NCBI GenBank assembly: GCA_016776605.1 | Contig: JADHTB010000001.1 | Location: forward strand, 1-64,000 | DNA: 64,000 nt | From: Alphaproteobacteria bacterium | GTDB lineage: Bacteria > Pseudomonadota > Alphaproteobacteria > GCA-2731375 | Direction: 5' to 3' | Shown here: positions 13,950 to 22,421 of the stretch, one piece after another | Position numbering within the stretch: position 1 is the first letter of the stretch | How the letters are laid out: each line of letters begins with the position of its first letter | The notes under the pieces: generated by a model | Seen by the model: only the letters and a program-made list of their open reading frames with translations | Database searches by the model: none | Told to the model about the DNA's origin: nothing | Program-made: the position numbers and the translations under genes

Positions 13950-15017
13950 ATGCAAAACGCCATCTATTCGTCGTTAAAAGCGATGCACTATCATGACCAT
14001 CTTGACGCCATGCAGGCCGGCGAGTTACCGGCGCCCGTGCATGTGCGCATCAAACCAACCAACATCTGCAATCACAATTGCTATTTCTGCGCCTATCGCA
14101 CGGACGATGTCTCCCTGGGCGAGGACATGGTGGTGCGGGACCGTATAGCAAAGGAGAAGATGGCTGAAATCGTCGAAGATTTGTTGGCCATGGGTGTCCG
14201 CGCGGTGACTTTTTCGGGCGGTGGCGAGCCGTTGCTTTATCCCTATTTTGTCGAAACCGTAAACCGCCTGGCCGAAGGCGGCATCAAAATCGCGTCATTG
14301 ACCAATGGCTCGCGCCTGAAGGGCAAGACCGCCGATGCCTTGGCCGCGCATGGCACCTGGCTGCGGGTCTCGATCGACGGTTGGGACGGCCCTTCCTATG
14401 GCGAATACCGCAGCGTACCGGAAACAGCCTTTGAAGAGGTGATGGATAATTTAACCGCCTTCGCCGCGCGCGGGTCTAAATGTGTGCTGGGCGCTTCCAT
14501 CATCGTTGATGAACGCAACGCCAGCCATATTGTTGCCCTATGCCGGCGCCTGAAAGCGGCGGGCGTATCCCACGCCAAGATCTCGCCCTGCATCATTGCC
14601 AACAGCGGGGCGGAGAACAATCTTTATCATGACGGTTTCAAGCATATTGTGCGGGCGCAAATTACCGAGGCCAAATCTCTGGACGACGAAAACTTCCAGG
14701 TGGTGGATCACTATCACAGCATGGAAATCGACTTTTCGAAGCCATACGAGCGTTGCGCATTCGCCCAGATGCTGACCGTGATTGGCGCCGACTGCAAAAT
14801 CTATACCTGCCAGGACAAGGCCTATACCGAAAGCGGCACTCTGGGCGATATATCGGGGCAAAGTTTTCGCGAATTCTGGTACTCGAAAGAAAATCGCATA
14901 CAGCTTGCAGCCATTGATCCACGCCAAAACTGCCAGCATCATTGCGTCGCCGATGCCAAGAACCGCTTGTTGAGCGACTACCTGTCCTTGGCGCCGGACC
15001 ACCTAATGTTTATTTAA
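13950..15017 (+). CDS. Radical SAM protein with SPASM-like C-terminal cysteines
   Basis: A 355-residue radical SAM enzyme. The [4Fe-4S]-binding CxxxCxxC is in NICNHNCYFCAYR (about residues 34-46), followed by the SAM-binding GGGEPLLYP segment near 90-98. The C-terminus has further cysteines (CQDKAYTESGTLGD and NCQHHC), suggesting a SPASM-like auxiliary cluster region. Homologues of this type are often uncharacterised or found near surface-sugar genes; here there is no such neighbour and I cannot name a substrate. Its last 15 bases overlap the convergent decaheme cytochrome gene. Confidence 0.87.
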   Translation: MQNAIYSSLKAMHYHDHLDAMQAGELPAPVHVRIKPTNICNHNCYFCAYRTDDVSLGEDMVVRDRIAKEKMAEIVEDLLAMGVRAVTFSGGGEPLLYPYFVETVNRLAEGGIKIASLTNGSRLKGKTADALAAHGTWLRVSIDGWDGPSYGEYRSVPETAFEEVMDNLTAFAARGSKCVLGASIIVDERNASHIVALCRRLKAAGVSHAKISPCIIANSGAENNLYHDGFKHIVRAQITEAKSLDDENFQVVDHYHSMEIDFSKPYERCAFAQMLTVIGADCKIYTCQDKAYTESGTLGDISGQSFREFWYSKENRIQLAAIDPRQNCQHHCVADAKNRLLSDYLSLAPDHLMFI

Positions 15018-17420
15018 GACCTCTTTGAACATGCCCTTGGCATGGGTATCCACCGGAAGGAAAACACCAAGGTGGTAGTTGTGGCAGGTCAGGCAGTCGT
15101 CCCCGGCCTTGGCCGCCGTATGGCATTCCGCGCAAACCGCCCGCGGCAAGGGCTTAAAGTTCGGGCTGAAGGTGGCGGGGTCGCGATCCTTGTAAGCGGA
15201 GGCATAGTCCGCCTTGTTGTCCCGGGCATGACAGGACAAACAGCCCCCTTTATCCAACAGGTTGAAATGGGCGGCATGGGAAAAGCGCACTGATTTCTTC
15301 AACCCGTCCGCCGGCCGATAGGCCATCCAATTCACCAACAGGCCGCCATCCGCCTGTTTGTCCACGGAATGGCATTCGCCACACAATCCCGGCGCCTTAT
15401 CGCCGATCATGCCTTCGAATACCTGACTGCTTTCCTTTAGCCGTTGACCCGATTTTCCGGTCAGATCCAACCAGGCGCGGATGAAACCATCCGCATGCCC
15501 GGTGGGGCGATAGCGCAGGACGAATTCGTCGCGATACCAGCCGCCGGAAACGTTCCAATCTTCCCCGTGGGTCATTGCAATGGCGGGGGTGCTGGTTATG
15601 TTTCCGCCGTCCGCGGATTTCCCGTCGCCGTCACTGTCCTTACCGGTGGCGATTTCTCCGTCGTCATCGTCTTTATCGGTATCGATTTCGTCGTCGTCAT
15701 CGTCCTTGCCGGTGGCAATTTCTCCGTCGTCATCGTCTTTATCAGTATCGATTTCGTCGTCATCATCGTCCTTGCCGGTGGCAATTTCGTCATCATCAGT
15801 TTCTTTGTCCGTGTCTATTTCGTCGTCTTTGTCCGTGGCAATTTCCTTGTCGCCACCGTCGTCCTTGTCTGCATTATTTTCTGCCGCATTTTCCGCCGCG
15901 GCCGCAGCGTGGGGCGGCGCCTTTTCCGAAGGTATCAACACCGCATCACCAGCACGCCAGCGATGAATTTCCGACACCAAGGCCGGGAACCATTCCTTTT
16001 GCGCCGCGGCGATGGTGTCCAGGGGTAGTAACGCCGTTAACGAAGCTTTTTCAGTCTCCAACAAAGGACGTCCCAGAACGCCATGCAAGCGCGCATGCAG
16101 GCTTGCCACGCCCTTGCTGCGAAGATCGAATAACAATGATTTCACGCTCCAGGCCAGGGTTTCAACCGCCGCCAATTGCTCGTCATCGGCGTCGAACAAA
16201 TCCATCGGGTCATCGATACTATCAAAAACAATTTTCGCCGCGCGGTACTCTGGATCCGCCGAAAGTAATAAATTCATAACCGGCGGCACCGTGCCATCGG
16301 CGAATTCCGGCCATTCGCCAATGGCCGCGCCCTTGTCGCGCAAGCCGGCGATATCCAGGCCCGGAACGGCAAGTATGGCCATGCCCTTGGCACTGGCGCG
16401 CCCGGCGCCGGCCACCTCTTCAGCATGGCAGGCGCCACAGCTTGCCTCAAACGACCTCACCTCCATAAGGCGGCCGTTGGCATCCGCCTTGTGGCAGTCA
16501 CTGCAGTCTCCCGGCGCCAATGCGACCAGCTTGGCATCACGGAAATGTTTATCGATATGGCTGGTATGATCAAATTGTATGTTTGTCCGCCGCTCGTAAG
16601 GGTAGCCCACAAAATCCGGATGGCCGGAAGCAAGACTGTGAAATTGCACCTGATGGCAGGTGTTGCAATGATCGGCGCTCATGTGCGCTAAATTACCTTC
16701 CGCGCCCAGATGTTCACGGTGGCAGGTCATACAGGGAATGGATTCATCGTTTTTTCCGGGTGCACCGAACGCCAAATTGGCCAATTGTACACCAATGCTG
16801 CGTCCGGTAACGGTCGCTGGCGCCACGTTCGCGCTCGAATCGTGAAGGGCTTCCGTTGGCAAATTGTGGGGCAGCAGGCCGCGATCGGTCATCTTGTGGC
16901 AGGCGATACAGGGCTCGCTGTCCGCCTTTGCATTATTAACGGACCAGGCGGCGCGCAGCCATCCGGTAACCCCTTCGTGGAAATTAACATGGCAGGAGCC
17001 ACAATCGGCCAAAGCCGAATGCTGAAACGACAGATCACCGGGATTAATAAAGTCCGTGCGGTAGCCACTGGCCAGCACCAGGAGCACCAGACCAATCAGC
17101 ACCGCCAACACCCAACGTGTAACGACCGCGCGCCGGGCACGCCAACTGCGAACCGGCCGGCATAGCGGTATCTGACGGCAACAGGTACCGTCCGCTAATG
17201 GCCCCTCCGCGCACGGACCGCCGGAAAATTGCGAGCGGGTACAATTCCAACGCTCACCGACCCGCGCGGGACTGCATTCATAGCCGCCGCGGCAATGACC
17301 GCTATTGTCCGGGCCTATCTGGCATGGGCATCCTTCTGACGCATGCCCACAGACCCAGTTCTGACCCGGGCGGAGATAGGGGCTGTCGCGATAGTTGAAC
17401 GATTGCAGAGGCTCGGACAT
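15003..17420 (-). CDS. Membrane-anchored decaheme c-type cytochrome with Cys-rich N-terminus and Asp-rich linker
   Basis: An 805-residue protein. Residues 1-100 form a Cys-rich region (C24, C31, C33, C43, C49, C60, C70, C80, C81, C87) with a duplicated W-x-C...C-x-x-GP-x-x-x-G-x-C pattern. A single membrane helix follows at about 103-119. The rest contains ten CXXCH heme sites: six after the helix (CGSCH, CIACH, CMTCH, CNTCH, CSDCH, CGACH) and four at the end (CGECH, CLSCH, CAECH, CLTCH), separated by an Asp/Glu/Lys/Thr-rich tandem-repeat linker. By charge and heme maturation, the hemes should be periplasmic and the Cys-rich part cytoplasmic. The ATG overlaps the stop codon of the cytochrome b gene by one base. 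I know no named family with this exact architecture. Confidence 0.88.
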   Translation of the reverse strand: MSEPLQSFNYRDSPYLRPGQNWVCGHASEGCPCQIGPDNSGHCRGGYECSPARVGERWNCTRSQFSGGPCAEGPLADGTCCRQIPLCRPVRSWRARRAVVTRWVLAVLIGLVLLVLASGYRTDFINPGDLSFQHSALADCGSCHVNFHEGVTGWLRAAWSVNNAKADSEPCIACHKMTDRGLLPHNLPTEALHDSSANVAPATVTGRSIGVQLANLAFGAPGKNDESIPCMTCHREHLGAEGNLAHMSADHCNTCHQVQFHSLASGHPDFVGYPYERRTNIQFDHTSHIDKHFRDAKLVALAPGDCSDCHKADANGRLMEVRSFEASCGACHAEEVAGAGRASAKGMAILAVPGLDIAGLRDKGAAIGEWPEFADGTVPPVMNLLLSADPEYRAAKIVFDSIDDPMDLFDADDEQLAAVETLAWSVKSLLFDLRSKGVASLHARLHGVLGRPLLETEKASLTALLPLDTIAAAQKEWFPALVSEIHRWRAGDAVLIPSEKAPPHAAAAAENAAENNADKDDGGDKEIATDKDDEIDTDKETDDDEIATGKDDDDDEIDTDKDDDDGEIATGKDDDDDEIDTDKDDDDGEIATGKDSDGDGKSADGGNITSTPAIAMTHGEDWNVSGGWYRDEFVLRYRPTGHADGFIRAWLDLTGKSGQRLKESSQVFEGMIGDKAPGLCGECHSVDKQADGGLLVNWMAYRPADGLKKSVRFSHAAHFNLLDKGGCLSCHARDNKADYASAYKDRDPATFSPNFKPLPRAVCAECHTAAKAGDDCLTCHNYHLGVFLPVDTHAKGMFKEVLNKH
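15639..15792 (-). repeat. 66-bp in-frame tandem repeat coding for Asp-rich linker
   Basis: Units begin at 15639, 15705 and 15771, each 66 bases, with the third incomplete. They code for 22-residue units alternating E-I-A-T-G-K and E-I-D-T-D-K segments separated by four or five Asp. The DNA copies differ at only a few third positions, so the expansion is recent. More diverged acidic repeats flank them up to about 15860. The length in codons keeps the frame open. Confidence 0.85.
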
Positions 17421-18253
17421 CAGCGCGGCCCGCTAAATGAATAAACCAGTACCAAATGTAGCAGCGCCAACAGAATCAAGCCGTAAGTGGCCGGCAAATG
17501 AACAAACAACCAGGCCTTTAGGGTACTTTGCAAGGCATGGGCATAGTCCAGCCGATCCTTGCGTTCAACCAACAACCGTAATTTTTCGAGGTAAACTGTT
17601 TCCTGATCGTTCAGATATCGCGCCATCGCGTCCATATCAGTCATCAGCGTGAACGATGCGCGGCGGGAACCCCGCAAATGTAATCGAAAATTCCTGGGCG
17701 CCGCGAAATAGGAAGAGAGCCGGCTGCCATAAAAATCAGCGATCGTGGATGATCCGGTCTCGGCGGCGGATTTCAGTACAAGATCTTCAGCCTGGGCGCG
17801 CAACTCGGCAATAAATTGCGGTATCCTTTCCAACACCACTTCCTCGGTGCGCCGGGTCAGCATGCGGGCATAACTACGGGATATATAAATCCCGGCCACG
17901 CCGCTGCCAGCCACCACAACGAAAAACAACGCCAGGATACGCTCCAAAATGCCGCTCGGCAGGGTCCAATCGATGTGCAGCGCGAATATGAAAACCGCCA
18001 GCAAACCCAGATAAATATGCAATTGCAACCAGGCCGCCGCCGACCCCATGGGCACCATCGACAATTTTTTCCGGCCATTGTAGAGCGTCAGCAGCAAAAC
18101 CACCGTCAGCAACAACCAACCGGTCAGAAACACCGGCTGGTAGAGGGCCACATTATGGGCCGTATGCCAGGCCAGCAATCCGGCGGCTGCCAGCAGTACG
18201 ATGAAGCCGCTTATCCAGCGGCGTATGGCGAATGTTATCACCGGTTCAGCCAC
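17420..18253 (-). CDS. Four-histidine diheme cytochrome b-type membrane subunit
   Basis: A 277-residue membrane protein with five likely helices, at about 11-28, 41-58, 74-94, 104-124 and 247-271. His79 and His93 lie 14 residues apart in helix 3, and His252 and His266 lie 14 apart in helix 5. This is the spacing that stacks two bis-His hemes across a membrane in cytochrome b subunits. A cytoplasmic loop of about 120 residues separates helices 4 and 5. It overlaps the upstream Fe-S gene by 16 bases and the decaheme gene by one, so it most likely carries electrons between those two. It is not clearly NarI, FdnI or b561; the diheme call is inferred from the histidine pattern. Confidence 0.75.
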   Translation of the reverse strand: MAEPVITFAIRRWISGFIVLLAAAGLLAWHTAHNVALYQPVFLTGWLLLTVVLLLTLYNGRKKLSMVPMGSAAAWLQLHIYLGLLAVFIFALHIDWTLPSGILERILALFFVVVAGSGVAGIYISRSYARMLTRRTEEVVLERIPQFIAELRAQAEDLVLKSAAETGSSTIADFYGSRLSSYFAAPRNFRLHLRGSRRASFTLMTDMDAMARYLNDQETVYLEKLRLLVERKDRLDYAHALQSTLKAWLFVHLPATYGLILLALLHLVLVYSFSGPR

Positions 18254-20007
18254 CTTCCCAGGTCGGTCAAATTTTGCATATCCACCCGTTTTAATGCGTC
18301 ATGCGGGCAGGCACGCTGACAGGCGGGTCCCCCGGGTTGATCAATGCATAGATCACATTTGGTCGCCTTGACGATCGGCGCACTGGTCACGCTATCGCGG
18401 ACGAAGGCGCCATTTCTGTCACGCACTTCCACCATGCGGATATTGTCGTAGGGGCAGGAGTTGGCACAGGTGGCACACCCGATACAGGTTGCATCGTTGA
18501 TCAAAACCTGACCGGCTGACGAAGATCTGTGAATGGCGCCGGTTGGACAACCAATCATGCAGACCGGATCCATACAATGCATGCAGGCATTGGCCACCAT
18601 GTAATGATCATGGCGCCGGCCATGGCGGTTAAAACGGGGATTACTGTCATGGGCACGGGCGCAGGCCACCACGCAATCGTCACAGCGCACGCAACGGTCC
18701 AGGTCCATCAACATGGTTGACGTACCGTTGATGTAACGATGTTCGACCAGAAATTCCAACATCCCCGGCTCGATCAACCGGTTGACGCCCGGGTCATTGT
18801 CACCGCCCGCGTCCGCTTTGTCTTGAGGCTCGTCCAACTGACCGTATTCGGCCAATTCTTCGCCGGACAGCGTCGGCAGCACCAATGCCTCGATCACCGC
18901 CGTTGGCACCCGCAAAATATCCACATACCCCAAAGCCCGCAGAGTGGCTTGCATGGTTGTCGTTCGGTCCTCACCATCACCGTCAGGGCCTGCTTTGCTG
19001 GCATGATCCGACCAATTATGGACAATCTCGGCCATGCCATGGACGGCGCCGCGTCCGATATAGCGGATCGTCCTGTCGCCATTATTGACAACTTGACTAA
19101 CCCGGGCGAAACCGGCCCGCACCAACAACAGGCCATCAGGGTAATGGCCTTCGGCCACGATAACCGGCTCCCCCGCCAGGCGGTGGTTAAAACTTTGACC
19201 CTGGTCGCGTTTGTATTGCGTATGCCAATCGAAATCGCCATAGGTTTCGAACAAAGTTCCCTCGGCGATCCGGTTAATTGCAGCTTCATCCAGATGTTGA
19301 AACATCGGGGTGGCGCGCAAATGCGAAACCAAACTGCGTTCGCGGTACAGCCGATCCACATGTTTTCGGAATTCATCGACCCGGCGCCGGATATCCCGCA
19401 AACCCTGCCAGCGAATTTCCAGCAATTCCGAAGGACCATCGGAAATCACCGAGGCCGTACGCTGGGTCCGCCCGAGAGCGGCAATTTCGCCGAACATATC
19501 GCCCGCGACCAAGGTGGCGGTCCGGTGCTCGTCAAGTACCCTGGGTACATCCTGGATAAAGACGCGGGCCTGTTGATCGACGCCCGCCCGGCTGGCGGTA
19601 CCCTCGCCTGCCCCGGCGGTATGGGAATCCCACACCTCCGGGTACGAAGCGTTGCGCCACAATTGCGCCACGGCCTGCATCAAACTCTTCTTTTGACTGT
19701 GCGCCCGGCCCAACATGGCCTCGGACAATCCCGGTTGCAATACGACCCGGACCTGCCCCGTGATTACCAGAAAGGCCGAATTACCGTAGTCGCCTTCGCG
19801 CACGACGATGTCACCGTCCTGGCAATAGACGATACGGGTATCGTTGCTGATGATGCCGGCCAGCGGCAAGCTGTCGGGAAAGCGGTCGCGGTCCATCTCG
19901 CGGAACGGATCCAATGCCAGGATACGCTCCACATCAATGCTGTCCATTTCGTCGGAAAACGGCGTATCCCAACGCCGGGGCCGCGGTATCGTGACCACCT
20001 CAGCCAC
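18238..20007 (-). CDS. Cyclic-nucleotide-binding / four-[4Fe-4S] ferredoxin fusion protein
   Basis: A 589-residue protein with no signal peptide, hence cytoplasmic. Residues about 45-215 form a cNMP-binding domain with an intact phosphate-binding cassette (FGEIAALGRTQRTASV, 172-187, including the key Arg). Residues about 235-380 form a second, degenerate one (GRGAVHGMAEI). Residues 430-575 hold sixteen cysteines in four [4Fe-4S] sets (C439/442/445/449, C475/478/483/487, C508/511/514/518, C551/554/563/567), arranged as in DmsB/NrfC-type electron-transfer subunits. It overlaps the cytochrome b gene. Likely role: pass electrons to that subunit under cyclic-nucleotide control. The control function is inferred. 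Confidence 0.88.
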   Translation of the reverse strand: MAEVVTIPRPRRWDTPFSDEMDSIDVERILALDPFREMDRDRFPDSLPLAGIISNDTRIVYCQDGDIVVREGDYGNSAFLVITGQVRVVLQPGLSEAMLGRAHSQKKSLMQAVAQLWRNASYPEVWDSHTAGAGEGTASRAGVDQQARVFIQDVPRVLDEHRTATLVAGDMFGEIAALGRTQRTASVISDGPSELLEIRWQGLRDIRRRVDEFRKHVDRLYRERSLVSHLRATPMFQHLDEAAINRIAEGTLFETYGDFDWHTQYKRDQGQSFNHRLAGEPVIVAEGHYPDGLLLVRAGFARVSQVVNNGDRTIRYIGRGAVHGMAEIVHNWSDHASKAGPDGDGEDRTTTMQATLRALGYVDILRVPTAVIEALVLPTLSGEELAEYGQLDEPQDKADAGGDNDPGVNRLIEPGMLEFLVEHRYINGTSTMLMDLDRCVRCDDCVVACARAHDSNPRFNRHGRRHDHYMVANACMHCMDPVCMIGCPTGAIHRSSSAGQVLINDATCIGCATCANSCPYDNIRMVEVRDRNGAFVRDSVTSAPIVKATKCDLCIDQPGGPACQRACPHDALKRVDMQNLTDLGRWLNR

Positions 20008-20063
20008 GGCGAACAGCCATCATCAACTCTCCGCCAACCCAATGCCCGCCATGTCCAGGCATC

Positions 20064-21062
20064 TTACTTGCCCTTGAATTTATCGGGTCCAGGCAATATT
20101 GAATCGAGGCCGCCAAATGTACTGCCATCATATTTGCTGGCCAGGATTTGGGCATGACGGGCAATAGCGTCCGCCGCCGCCGTCAATTTGGCTTCATTGT
20201 TCAATTTCAATTTTACCGACCTTGCGGCCTTATACATGGCCATCAATTCCGGCGCATCGACCAACTTAGCAATCGCCTTGATCCGCTTACGCGCCTTCTT
20301 TGCCCGTTTGGCCATTTTCACCGCGTAATCGGCTTTCTTGGTTGCCTTGGCGACGCCACGCAGGGCGAATTCCAGGTCAAGTGCCCGGCCCACCAGATAA
20401 ATCATCCGCAGGCGTTCGATCGGCGAAACCTTATTTTCCTTGCTGTACCAGACATTATGGCGGACCTCGCCCTGGCTCCAGGCAACCAGTTCAATTTTAC
20501 TGCCAGCAGCATGGCCGCCAACGTTGACCAGTTTTTCGTTTGGCACCGAATGGCAACCAAAACAATTCTTGGCCACTTGATAAATATTTCCGGGCCGGAT
20601 CATGCCTGCTTGTTTGGATTTTTTAAAGCGGTCCGCCTTGTGCGCCGCGGCTTCGTTCTCGGCCTTTACGCCTTTGCCGCCAAAATCACTGTGAACCTTG
20701 ATCCAGTCACGGCCAGCGCCATGACAGGATTCACAGGCAATGCCGGCGATCGGCTTTGCCTTGCCCTTCACCATGGCCGAGGTGAAATGGCATGACAGAC
20801 ATTCGCTACCTGCCTTGATGCGCTTCAAACCCATTTTATCGGCAATCGCACGCGCTTCCTTTTTTCGCGGCAGCGATTTGAAGGTGGAAAAATGATGACT
20901 ACCCTTCCATGCTTCGACAGAAGCTTTGTGGCATTCGCCACAGGCATCGGGGCCCATGACCTTGGCTGGATCCAGATGCAGCTCTTGCGCTTGAACCATA
21001 CCGGGAGCCAACAGCAGCGCACCGAAAAAAGCCAACCCAAGTAAAAATGTATGTGTTTTCAT
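20064..21062 (-). CDS. Tetraheme c-type cytochrome, cytochrome c554-like
   Basis: About 332 residues from the ATG at 21062, which is preceded by GGGGGA; an upstream in-frame start at 21095 would bury the signal peptide. The signal peptide is clear (hydrophobic core LLGLAFFGALLLAP, likely cut after VQAQ). Four CXXCH sites follow: CGECH, CLSCH, CESCH and CFGCH, with a distal-His-rich context typical of the c554 family. The C-terminal 150 residues are helical and very Lys/Ala-rich, giving a strongly basic tail. It would be a soluble periplasmic electron carrier. It lies 56 bases upstream of the cNMP/Fe-S gene in the same operon. Confidence 0.87.
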   Translation of the reverse strand: MKTHTFLLGLAFFGALLLAPGMVQAQELHLDPAKVMGPDACGECHKASVEAWKGSHHFSTFKSLPRKKEARAIADKMGLKRIKAGSECLSCHFTSAMVKGKAKPIAGIACESCHGAGRDWIKVHSDFGGKGVKAENEAAAHKADRFKKSKQAGMIRPGNIYQVAKNCFGCHSVPNEKLVNVGGHAAGSKIELVAWSQGEVRHNVWYSKENKVSPIERLRMIYLVGRALDLEFALRGVAKATKKADYAVKMAKRAKKARKRIKAIAKLVDAPELMAMYKAARSVKLKLNNEAKLTAAADAIARHAQILASKYDGSTFGGLDSILPGPDKFKGK

Positions 21063-21152
21063 GATCACAAAAATCCCCCGCATTTTATCAACCAAGCCAT
21101 ATATTTTCCGGCCGCACTGGACCGAGTCGAATTAAATTTCAGCCGCAAACCG

Positions 21153-22421
21153 TCAGGCATCCAGGGCCAAATTCGATTTGGGTACTGATATGCATGTTAG
21201 GCATGACCCGGACTCGGGCAATGAACCCGGCTCCTCGACATAACTTACCTCACCGCTCTTCACGGCGGTGATGCAGGTGCCGCAGCTGCCCGCCCGGCAC
21301 CCGAATTCCAATTCGACGCCATTGGCCTCCGCCAGTTCGAGGATCGAGCCTTGGCTGCCGTCCCAGGTTATCGTTTTGTTCGAACGCGTGAATGTTACCG
21401 CCTGCCCGGTGGCCGCGGTTGCATCCGGCGCGGGCGCGGTTTTCTTCACGCTGGCAGGGCCAAACGCCTCAAAAAAGATATCCGCATCCGGCACGCCCCA
21501 TGCCCGCAGGTCCGCCGCCAACGATTCCATCATCGGGGGCGGGCCACAGACATAGAATTCGTAATTACTCGACGGCAAGGTTTTTTTGAACAAGTCGACG
21601 CTGACCCTGCCACTGTGGTGAAAACCCTCACCCGCGACCTCGTCATCCTTGGGATCGCTGTAGCAGACCTGCAAATGGATGTTTTCATGCTCGGCCTCCA
21701 GGGCCTCCAGATGTTCGCGCATGATATGTTCATCGCCATTGCGGACACCGTAGAAAAACCAGGTCTCGCGCTGCGCGCCCGCATCACAAATCGCGTTCAA
21801 CATGGAGATCATCGGAGTCAAACCAACACCGCCGCCGATCAGAACGACGGGGCGATGCTTGGATAAATCCAGGAAAAAATTACCTGACGGCGCCTTAACA
21901 TCGACGATGTCGCCGGCCTGTAAACTATCGTGAAAAAAGCTCGACGACAATCCCGGCGGGGCATCGGGCACTTTTGGCGGCGGCCCCTGGCGTTTGATGC
22001 TGACCCGGTAATAATCAGTCTGCAACGGACTGTCGGAAAGGGAATAACAACGCACCAACGGTTTTTCCCGGTCAGGCAGGCGCAAATTAAACGTCAGATA
22101 CTGCCCCGGCTGGAAGGGCGGCAGCACTTTGCCATCATGGGGCACAAGGTAGAAAGAGGAAATGCCTCCACCTTCAATAATCTTGTCGCGAATCTGAAAT
22201 TTCCGCACCCCCGACCAAGTGGCGGTGGTCTTTTTCCGCTCCAGGTCGCGGCTCAAAGTTTCGGCATCAACCCGGCGGCGCAATAAATCGTTCGCCAATC
22301 CCTGTTGCACCCGCGCCAGATTAGCGCCGCGCCAAGTACCATATAACAAAACAGCGACCTGCATAAAGGCAGCGGCAATGATCAATCCGCCGATGACTTG
22401 AATTACCCCCGTCCCTATCAT
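21153..22421 (-). CDS. Membrane-anchored FAD/NAD(P)H oxidoreductase with 2Fe-2S domain
   Basis: A 422-residue protein, first gene of the redox operon. An N-terminal membrane helix (about 5-28) is followed by a basic stretch, placing the catalytic part in the cytoplasm. FAD-binding RCYSLS is at 124-129, the nucleotide-binding GGGVGLTP at 196-203 and CGPPPMM at 292-298. A plant-type [2Fe-2S] domain closes the protein (C375, C380, C383, C410). Architecture matches reductases such as Hcr, benzoate dioxygenase reductase and flavohemoglobin-type modules. It should take electrons from NAD(P)H and feed the cytochrome and Fe-S partners encoded downstream. GGGA precedes the ATG. Confidence 0.88.
   Translation of the reverse strand: MIGTGVIQVIGGLIIAAAFMQVAVLLYGTWRGANLARVQQGLANDLLRRRVDAETLSRDLERKKTTATWSGVRKFQIRDKIIEGGGISSFYLVPHDGKVLPPFQPGQYLTFNLRLPDREKPLVRCYSLSDSPLQTDYYRVSIKRQGPPPKVPDAPPGLSSSFFHDSLQAGDIVDVKAPSGNFFLDLSKHRPVVLIGGGVGLTPMISMLNAICDAGAQRETWFFYGVRNGDEHIMREHLEALEAEHENIHLQVCYSDPKDDEVAGEGFHHSGRVSVDLFKKTLPSSNYEFYVCGPPPMMESLAADLRAWGVPDADIFFEAFGPASVKKTAPAPDATAATGQAVTFTRSNKTITWDGSQGSILELAEANGVELEFGCRAGSCGTCITAVKSGEVSYVEEPGSLPESGSCLTCISVPKSNLALDA

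Follow-up and report, generated by a model that had tools for sequence, protein, structure and literature searches.

Positions 15003-22421 of a 64,000-nt stretch of DNA from a marine alphaproteobacterium (GenBank assembly GCA_016776605.1, contig JADHTB010000001.1), which we call the window and whose numbering is used for all coordinates within it, carry five co-directional genes, all on the minus strand. Judged by its predicted proteins, this operon is the inner-membrane half of PCC4, a putative porin-cytochrome cluster predicted by He, Barco, Emerson and Roden (2017; PMC5566968), and the genome keeps the two halves of the cluster apart. We propose, and give this reading an even chance, that the products of the operon make up the inner-membrane half of a trans-envelope electron conduit of the PCC4 type, which would be fed by NADH and would run outward. 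What appears to be new relative to the published prediction is the breadth of hosts, the NADH reading, a genome-wide tie to an outer pair of proteins, a parallel fused form of the system, a domain with eight cysteines (the 8-Cys domain), and a partial split of the proteins into co-varying blocks.

In the proposed pathway, NADH would be oxidised at a membrane-anchored reductase carrying FAD and a [2Fe-2S] cluster, and the electrons would pass through the four [4Fe-4S] clusters of a protein with cyclic nucleotide monophosphate (cNMP)-type domains to the cytoplasmic-side b heme (H79/H252) of a five-helix membrane protein. From there they would cross the membrane to the outer b heme (H93/H266) and reach a tethered decaheme c cytochrome, and a tetraheme c554-like cytochrome would shuttle them onward through the periplasm to a 5-heme cytochrome and a beta-barrel at the outer membrane. 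This flow is probably tuned to a cyclic nucleotide by way of the cNMP domain. The potential of NADH suggests that the net direction is probably outward, in which case NADH would drive the reduction of some acceptor located in the outer membrane or outside it.

Gene content of the operon and its correspondence to PCC4

An earlier note made from the letters of this stretch had described a five-gene redox operon here, and the domains, hemes and gene overlaps that it listed were borne out when the five open reading frames (ORFs) were checked directly and compared with Pfam (Table 1). The gaps from the reductase gene to the c554 gene and from the c554 gene to the cNMP/Fe-S gene are 57 and 56 nt, respectively, while the cNMP/Fe-S and b genes overlap by 16 nt (18238-18253) and the b and decaheme genes by 1 nt (17420). 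Both gene content and conservation lend good support to the same note's view that the set is a conduit linking a cytoplasmic reductant with periplasmic c-hemes.

As published, PCC4 comprises a porin, 4-, 5- and 10-heme cytochromes, and an inner membrane protein of five helices, the third and fifth of which carry WX3HX13H and the fourth SGXXG; in its Subgroup II a pfam13247 Fe-S gene lies upstream of the gene for the five-helix protein, and the hosts reported were Proteobacteria and Planctomycetes (He et al., 2017). The b protein of the window has five helices, WX3HX13H on transmembrane helices (TM) 3 and 5, and SGXXG on TM4. The overlapping gene upstream of it encodes the cNMP/Fe-S protein, which matches PF13247 at 38.2 bits (cut-off 26.2), and the reductase gene stands as the redox gene upstream of the tetraheme cytochrome. 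Two of the three cytochromes (4 and 10 hemes) are in the window and the 5-heme one is on another contig, C8. Compared by published description, then, the likeness to Subgroup II covers the 4-, 5- and 10-heme cytochromes, the porin, the Fe-S gene, the five-helix protein and the redox gene. The differences are that the porin does not share a gene cluster with the operon, since porin and 5-heme cytochrome lie on C8; that the hosts fall by record title into nine phyla rather than the Proteobacteria and Planctomycetes; and that the cytoplasmic partner would be NADH rather than quinone. The earlier statement that no named complex has this composition therefore does not stand, as the set matches the inner-membrane half of the predicted PCC4. 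The operon has no recognised terminal reductase, as the note remarked; the terminal part that it lacks, which may be a conduit or a reductase, is the porin plus 5-heme cytochrome on C8.

The N-terminus of the reductase is a hydrophobic segment by our reading of the sequence. Among 72 aligned members (window included), R124, Y126, G198, T202, P203, C292, C375, C380, C383 and C410 are kept in 72/72 and S127 in 71/72. Its nearest solved relatives among the matches listed are flavohemoproteins, which occupy the top four places and which we take to be NADH enzymes, together with NqrF; 11 of the 24 solved relatives listed are named with NADH. The tetraheme protein matches NCBIfam Cyt554_Nsmonas at 41.5 bits, under the cut-off of 400, and its start is more likely the ATG at 21062, which would give a signal peptide ending in MVQA before QE, than the TTG at 21095.

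In the cNMP/Fe-S protein, each Fe-S cysteine is present in at least 94 of 97 standalone members (window included), and the first cNMP domain keeps, in the same set, the residues expected of a nucleotide pocket: G173 (97/97), E174 (96/97) and R183 (96/97). Because these pocket residues are kept, gating by cAMP or cGMP is plausible. A literature search on a cyclic nucleotide-binding or cNMP-binding protein of such a set gave no matching paper among those listed. The b protein had been called diheme in the earlier note, with His79/93 and His252/266 as ligands, and these four are indeed the sole invariant histidines among 33 aligned sequences (window included); they are kept in 75/75 of a wider standalone set. 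Its AlphaFold2 model, with a mean predicted local distance difference test score (pLDDT) of 90.8, has a helical layout that fits five membrane helices. The b protein matched no Pfam family at cut-off (DUF3732 reached 18.0 of 25 bits), its profile gave 14 matches against the PDB, all chance-like at E 0.49 or worse, and none of the 187 Foldseek matches of the model had E 0.001 or better (STEAP1, insignificant, had E 1.0). A search of viral contigs with this protein gave 6 pattern matches and no relative.

The membrane segment of the decaheme cytochrome lies near residues 102-120 by our reading of the sequence. Before it sits the 8-Cys domain, which the earlier note had not mentioned, which has no Pfam match, and whose cysteines are each conserved in 88 or 89 of 90 standalone-type members. 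This domain should be cytosolic, because an Arg-rich flank precedes the membrane segment and c-hemes are attached in the periplasm; such a placing makes metal binding likelier than disulfides. Acidic stretches (at least 14 Asp or Glu in 40 residues) were seen in 42/96 decaheme proteins and 27/41 5-heme proteins versus 1/83 reductases. They lie at about 15600-15880 in the window and in the N-terminal parts of the 5-heme proteins, and form repeats with LL or IL in some members.

Scans for promoters (5 versus a shuffle mean of 4.7, standard deviation 1.7) and for terminators (14 versus 10.0, standard deviation 3.2) were not clearly above shuffles. A radical SAM gene at 13950-15017 (plus strand) is convergent with the decaheme gene, their 3′ ends overlapping by 15 nt, and the same gene adjoins the operon in the stretches of five relatives (L034, L035, L036, L039 and L044).

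Table 1. Features of the operon in the window and of the outer pair on contig C8 of the same genome
Feature	Position	Strand	Basis or remark
Membrane-anchored NADH:FAD:[2Fe-2S] reductase, FNR-like (predicted)	21153-22421	-	FAD_binding_6, NAD_binding_1, Fer2 (Pfam)
[2Fe-2S] domain of reductase	about 21177-21386	-	Cys 375/380/383/410
Tetraheme c554-like cytochrome, predicted periplasmic	20064-21095	-	four CXXCH; Cytochrome_C554 PF13435, E 2.4e-15
Predicted cytosolic protein with two cNMP-type domains and four [4Fe-4S] (HycB/HydN-like)	18238-20007	-	cNMP_binding E 3.1e-21; 16 Cys
Four [4Fe-4S] sites of cNMP/Fe-S protein, residues 439-567	18307-18693	-	16 Cys
Five-helix diheme b protein, corresponding to PCC4 'IMP'	17420-18253	-	W75-H79-H93 (TM3), S117-G118-x-x-G121 (TM4), W248-H252-H266 (TM5)
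Membrane-anchored decaheme c cytochrome	15003-17420	-	ten CXXCH; hemes in blocks of 6 + 4 with acidic linker between
8-Cys domain of decaheme protein, residues 24-87, two 4-Cys repeats, predicted cytosolic	17160-17351	-	Cys conservation
Porin/beta-barrel, 525 aa	C8:20980-22350		own genome, other contig than operon
5-heme cytochrome, 691 aa	C8, adjoins porin gene		own genome

Conserved neighbourhood and a parallel fused form

Related loci were chosen by the cNMP/Fe-S protein alone and are not independent; a profile search with this protein at one genome per species found 547 related stretches, and the best 80 were used. A total of 121 loci stood in the tally once the short copies L048-L073, the loci L114-L120 and L136 (same contigs as L034-L041) and five loci with an identical protein tail (L121, L154, L158, L166 and L191) had been removed. 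L161 and L162, long ORFs without a TrxB-like domain, count in the fused class by length in the locus tally and are excluded from the conservation counts and the fused-class count. Fragments below set lengths were removed before the conservation and correlation counts. Partners were called at a phmmer E of 1e-5 or better, on either strand and anywhere in the fetched locus, and a locus is called well-flanked when no less than 4 kb lies to each side.

Across the whole fetched locus, each of the 62 well-flanked standalone loci held both the b protein and the decaheme cytochrome; 59 held the reductase, 58 held c554, and 55 had all four partners. When the count is limited to 4 kb around the cNMP/Fe-S gene, b and decaheme stay at 62 each, the reductase drops to 44, c554 to 54 and the full set of four to 37; with the same strand required as well, the figures are 62 for b, 62 for decaheme, 43 for reductase and 41 for c554. 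The b and decaheme genes stand beside the cNMP/Fe-S gene in 62/62 of these loci, and in one group of alphaproteobacterial loci the reductase gene lies about 7.5 kb downstream. The earlier note had proposed a search for co-conservation of the five families; carried out here, it finds them in a shared, conserved neighbourhood. Chance clustering was considered and rejected, because the neighbourhood is conserved across loci and because L042, from another genus of the family, keeps all five genes at 41-57% identity without the flanks (six flanking genes used as queries gave no match there at E 1e-8). In several relatives of the genus the operon stands beside cobS, malate/lactate dehydrogenase-like and radical SAM genes where contigs reach.

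By our reading of the record titles, the hosts of these best 80 of 547 stretches belong to nine phyla: Pseudomonadota, Planctomycetota, Verrucomicrobiota, Nitrospinota, Nitrospirota (Nitrospirales), SAR324, Zixibacteriota, Poribacteria and Latescibacterota. Only three of the 80 do not have titles of metagenome-assembled genomes (MAGs), namely Planctomycetales bacterium ZRK34, Hwanghaeella grinnelliae Gri0909 and Ferruginivarius sediminum WD2A32. A Mariprofundus-titled MAG (L146) holds the gene set. Some titles look wrong (L171, L152 and L176 are concerned), among them Klebsiella pneumoniae (L171) and Akkermansia, and L147 (titled Kiritimatiellae) shares an identical protein tail with L154 (titled Gammaproteobacteria); such odd or disagreeing titles are probably MAG mislabelling. 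Two further irregularities were seen among the loci. The cNMP/Fe-S gene of genome G008 (L043, 12258-14086) is in two reading frames, either a broken gene or an assembly error. Genome G004 carries the usual five genes on contig C11 and, on contig C24 (L040), a second copy of the inner genes, adjoined by a divergent set with a 5-heme cytochrome, a barrel and a distant c554.

A parallel form of the system has a TrxB/YpdA-like flavoprotein domain fused to the cNMP/Fe-S protein in 19/19 fused loci (family matches for one member). These loci, L047 and L096-L113, encode the fused TrxB-like/cNMP/Fe-S protein of about 800 aa, the b protein and the decaheme cytochrome, and a gene for the FNR-like reductase is found in 0/16 of the well-flanked ones. 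The standalone FNR-like gene and the fused TrxB/YpdA-like domain are two unrelated flavoprotein modules that accompany the same cNMP/Fe-S protein. An FHA-like domain takes the place of the 8-Cys domain in the two fused-class members scanned (Yop-YscD_cpl at E 3.3e-4 and 4.7e-5, both under the curated cut-off; FHA at 18.5 of 20.7 bits in one). Fused loci with 6.5 kb downstream (n = 18) contain another barrel in 8, another multiheme protein in 9 and, in 10, a protein that we presume to be GlcG-like.

The outer pair and its ties to the inner operon

The window lacks genes for the porin and the 5-heme cytochrome, and its own genome has both as a pair on contig C8; in the relative G006 the same two genes adjoin the operon (L034). 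Over all loci, a barrel of about 500 aa was found near the operon in 46 and a 5-heme cytochrome of about 660 aa in 44, and among 43 standalone loci flanked by no less than 6.5 kb on each side, 23 had the barrel, 21 the 5-heme cytochrome and 20 both. In a sample of 385 genomes of the class, 61 encode the cNMP/Fe-S protein and 61 the b protein, 60 genomes having the two together. The 5-heme protein was found in 31 genomes, all of them among the 61 with the cNMP/Fe-S protein (Fisher p 5e-29, uncorrected for relatedness), and in this class the outer pair therefore follows the inner operon even when unlinked. When the 61 were assigned to types manually, according to how far the alignment reached and how long the ORF was, 26 were of the standalone type, 23 of them with the 5-heme protein, and 35 were fused, 8 of them with it. 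A self-contained five-gene system without an outer part was rejected, at least in this class, on the strength of the C8 pair and the co-occurrence of the 5-heme protein.

The hemes of the 5-heme protein are attached at five plain CXXCH motifs. A model of one member (L135) had a mean pLDDT of 73.9, with residues 1-93 below 50, and among its 740 Foldseek matches a single one had E 0.001 or better, the penta-heme cytochrome c552 of Thermochromatium tepidum (5ze8, E 1.2e-13), which was also matched by sequence profile (E 1.4e-14). The two share the heme-motif region and a GHxxPTG-type C-terminal domain, while the 5-heme proteins are longer. The heme-motif region is also shared with the ExtKL multiheme (seleno)protein, matched at just 27.1-35.0 of 250 bits, and both ExtKL and 5ze8 differ from the 5-heme family in the acidic N-terminal stretch that 27/41 of the 5-heme proteins have. 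The DmsE family was matched at 28.2 of 192.2 bits, and the matches to NrfH, NapC and octaheme tetrathionate reductase were weak and all below cut-off. A literature search found no paper on the T. tepidum c552. On C8, a truncated globin gene (PF01152, E 1.9e-13; L196, 12728-13150) lies upstream of the 5-heme/barrel pair and co-directional with it, which could point to NO or O2 chemistry. An octaheme cytochrome-like ORF (393 aa, 8 CXXCH) was seen on contig C37 of the same genome (L199, 7582-8763).

Pairwise identities were correlated over the 24 loci with all seven proteins, shared ancestry being uncorrected. The reductase, cNMP/Fe-S, b and decaheme proteins formed an inner block (0.62-0.89) and the c554, 5-heme and barrel proteins an outer block (0.73-0.94), with values of 0.16-0.50 between blocks. 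Over 200 subsamples of 70% of the loci (5th-95th percentile), c554 gave 0.72-0.89 with the 5-heme protein versus 0.11-0.59 with the cNMP/Fe-S protein. Two of the 24 loci (L040 and L091) have c554 among the outer genes; once these two are taken out, the ranges were 0.55-0.87 (inner), 0.86-0.94 (outer) and 0.28-0.66 (between blocks), and c554 correlated at 0.86-0.89 with the outer pair versus 0.36-0.66 with the inner proteins. Because the between-block values rise when these loci are removed, the two blocks are only partly separate, and the distance of the b and decaheme proteins from the outer ones shrinks. Larger sets of unequal size showed no outer preference of c554 (0.51-0.75 with inner proteins over 63-83 loci, 0.52-0.61 with outer proteins over 37-41 loci). 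The firmest result is the co-variation of barrel and 5-heme protein, at 0.94-0.95 in all three sets. Taken together these values are suggestive of two-block evolution of inner and outer modules, and we place moderate trust in c554 as the coupler between the two halves.

Related systems, cytoplasmic partner and direction

The earlier note had compared the operon with Hmc, DsrMKJOP and Qrc. The likeness holds in logic, as all move electrons across the membrane and use multiheme c cytochromes together with HycB-like Fe-S proteins, but not in sequence, and membership in these complexes was rejected, since matches were far under the cut-offs (QrcA 25.5 of 180 bits, DsrO 42.2 of 200, HmcB 38.1 of 420, QrcC 28.8 of 400). 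Neither an NrfD gene nor one for a molybdopterin subunit is among the five genes, as the note had said, and this too sets the operon apart from the three. An FNR-like partner is a feature of NAD(P)H oxidases and ferric reductases (NOX/FRE), and here, as in those enzymes, an FNR-like flavoprotein would feed two b hemes whose ligands are HX13H pairs on two helices, a shared layout that counts in favour of the proposed NADH-fed pathway. In the operon, by contrast, flavoprotein, Fe-S carrier and b protein are separate, the acceptor would be a decaheme c cytochrome, and sequence offers no match: for a NOX/ferric-reductase transmembrane domain, the b protein gave no family match in Pfam at cut-off and no significant PDB match by profile or fold. 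The HX13H likeness of the b protein to these enzymes was already drawn by He et al. (2017). Other systems of a porin with multiheme cytochromes resemble this one in crossing the outer membrane and differ in heme numbers and in inner donors that are described as quinone-linked. A further porin-cytochrome type, from freshwater Verrucomicrobia, is distinct as described, having 8-heme cytochromes (PMC5615132).

For the cytoplasmic end of the conduit, we consider that NADH, not quinone as published, is probably the partner, because a reductase with conserved FAD, NAD and [2Fe-2S] residues is present in 59/62 well-flanked loci, and because the solved proteins nearest to it are flavohemoproteins and NqrF and the names of the listed relatives so often include NADH, which would favour NADH over NADPH. 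Moreover, the use of two NAD(P)H modules that are unrelated to each other on a single electron path suggests that NAD(P)H is the point of the pathway. There is precedent for both parts of this proposal in other porin-cytochrome clusters. In a 2026 paper that mentions PCC4 in passing, a ferredoxin-NADP reductase gene lies near 7/11 clusters of a large-decaheme/porin group, functional coupling is suggested, and most hosts are proposed to be heterotrophs that may export electrons (PMC13264449). Among the papers listed in our literature search for the name PCC4 (25 of 147), only this one and He et al. (2017) use it. This was the only paper found by our literature search that joins ferredoxin-NADP reductase, porin-cytochrome and multiheme, just as PMC5566968 was the only one found that joins pentaheme, tetraheme and decaheme cytochromes, a porin and Planctomycetes; an NAD(P)H link or outward flow applied to PCC4 was not found in these papers.

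Several observations weigh against an NADH-fed, outward conduit. The published PCC4 model runs the opposite way, to quinone (He et al., 2017), and no experiment on PCC4 came to light in the papers found. The fold does not settle the quinone question, because the b protein is without a Foldseek match at E 0.001 or better. The reductase gene lies beyond 4 kb in 18/62 loci, and its link to the complex is therefore not always positional. Just 20/43 of the standalone loci with sufficient flanks have both barrel and 5-heme cytochrome nearby, unlinked copies having been sought in the class sample and in the own genome. The barrel profile had two matches against the PDB (E 0.5 and 0.85), and the barrel, with a length of mostly 460-540 aa, may not be wide enough for a cytochrome to fit inside. 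Finally, the pattern of inner and outer blocks is soft.

In the published model, an extracellular donor such as Fe(II) passes electrons through the porin and cytochromes to the b protein and on to the quinone pool, which agrees with the reported occurrence of PCC4 in marine iron-oxidising Zetaproteobacteria and in Hyphomicrobium and with the comparison of its b protein with quinone-active cytochromes b (He et al., 2017). The Mariprofundus-titled MAG that carries the cluster fits this model as well, but it is alone in naming a known iron oxidiser among the 80 record titles (our reading; best 80 of 547), and the model leaves no evident role for the reductase (59/62 well-flanked standalone loci, 44 within 4 kb) or for the fused flavoprotein (19/19 fused loci). 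Nor can NAD+ take electrons from Fe(II) without energy input, and we judge the model unlikely for the operon described here. The inner complex might instead feed a periplasmic enzyme, with the 5-heme protein as a small-molecule reductase and the barrel as its substrate channel. A catalytic role is kept in play because the only clear solved relative, and sole significant fold match, of the 5-heme protein is a penta-heme c552; the weak sub-cut-off matches to NrfH, NapC and octaheme tetrathionate reductase, the ordinary porin size of the barrel and the truncated globin gene upstream of the pair favour it too. That all five heme motifs are plain CXXCH speaks against such a reductase, and the tight co-variation of barrel and 5-heme protein (0.94) is no less compatible with a physical complex; neither point is decisive, and we think this arrangement improbable. 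As for use in reverse, in which periplasmic or outside electrons would reduce NAD+ at the expense of the membrane potential, electron carriers are reversible and charge movement across the diheme b protein could couple to the potential, but nothing found in this analysis favours it, and its probability appears very low.

Returning to the NADH-fed, outward conduit, a fuller version of it, which we put forward as tentative and rather doubtful in its entirety, would make PCC4 a quinone-bypassing, cyclic-nucleotide-gated line for the export of electrons from NADH. It would consist of a four-protein inner NADH:decaheme oxidoreductase, exchangeable outer modules and c554 as coupler, in two parallel forms (one split, with an FNR-like reductase and the 8-Cys domain, and one fused, with TrxB-like and FHA-like domains in the same position), and would be spread over some nine phyla, few of them known for metal respiration. 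The predicted surface electron pathway extends well beyond Proteobacteria and Planctomycetes, for example to many Verrucomicrobiota-titled genomes, and if its inner end is NADH, it would serve as a respiratory outlet around the quinone pool, with electrons running against the direction of the published model.

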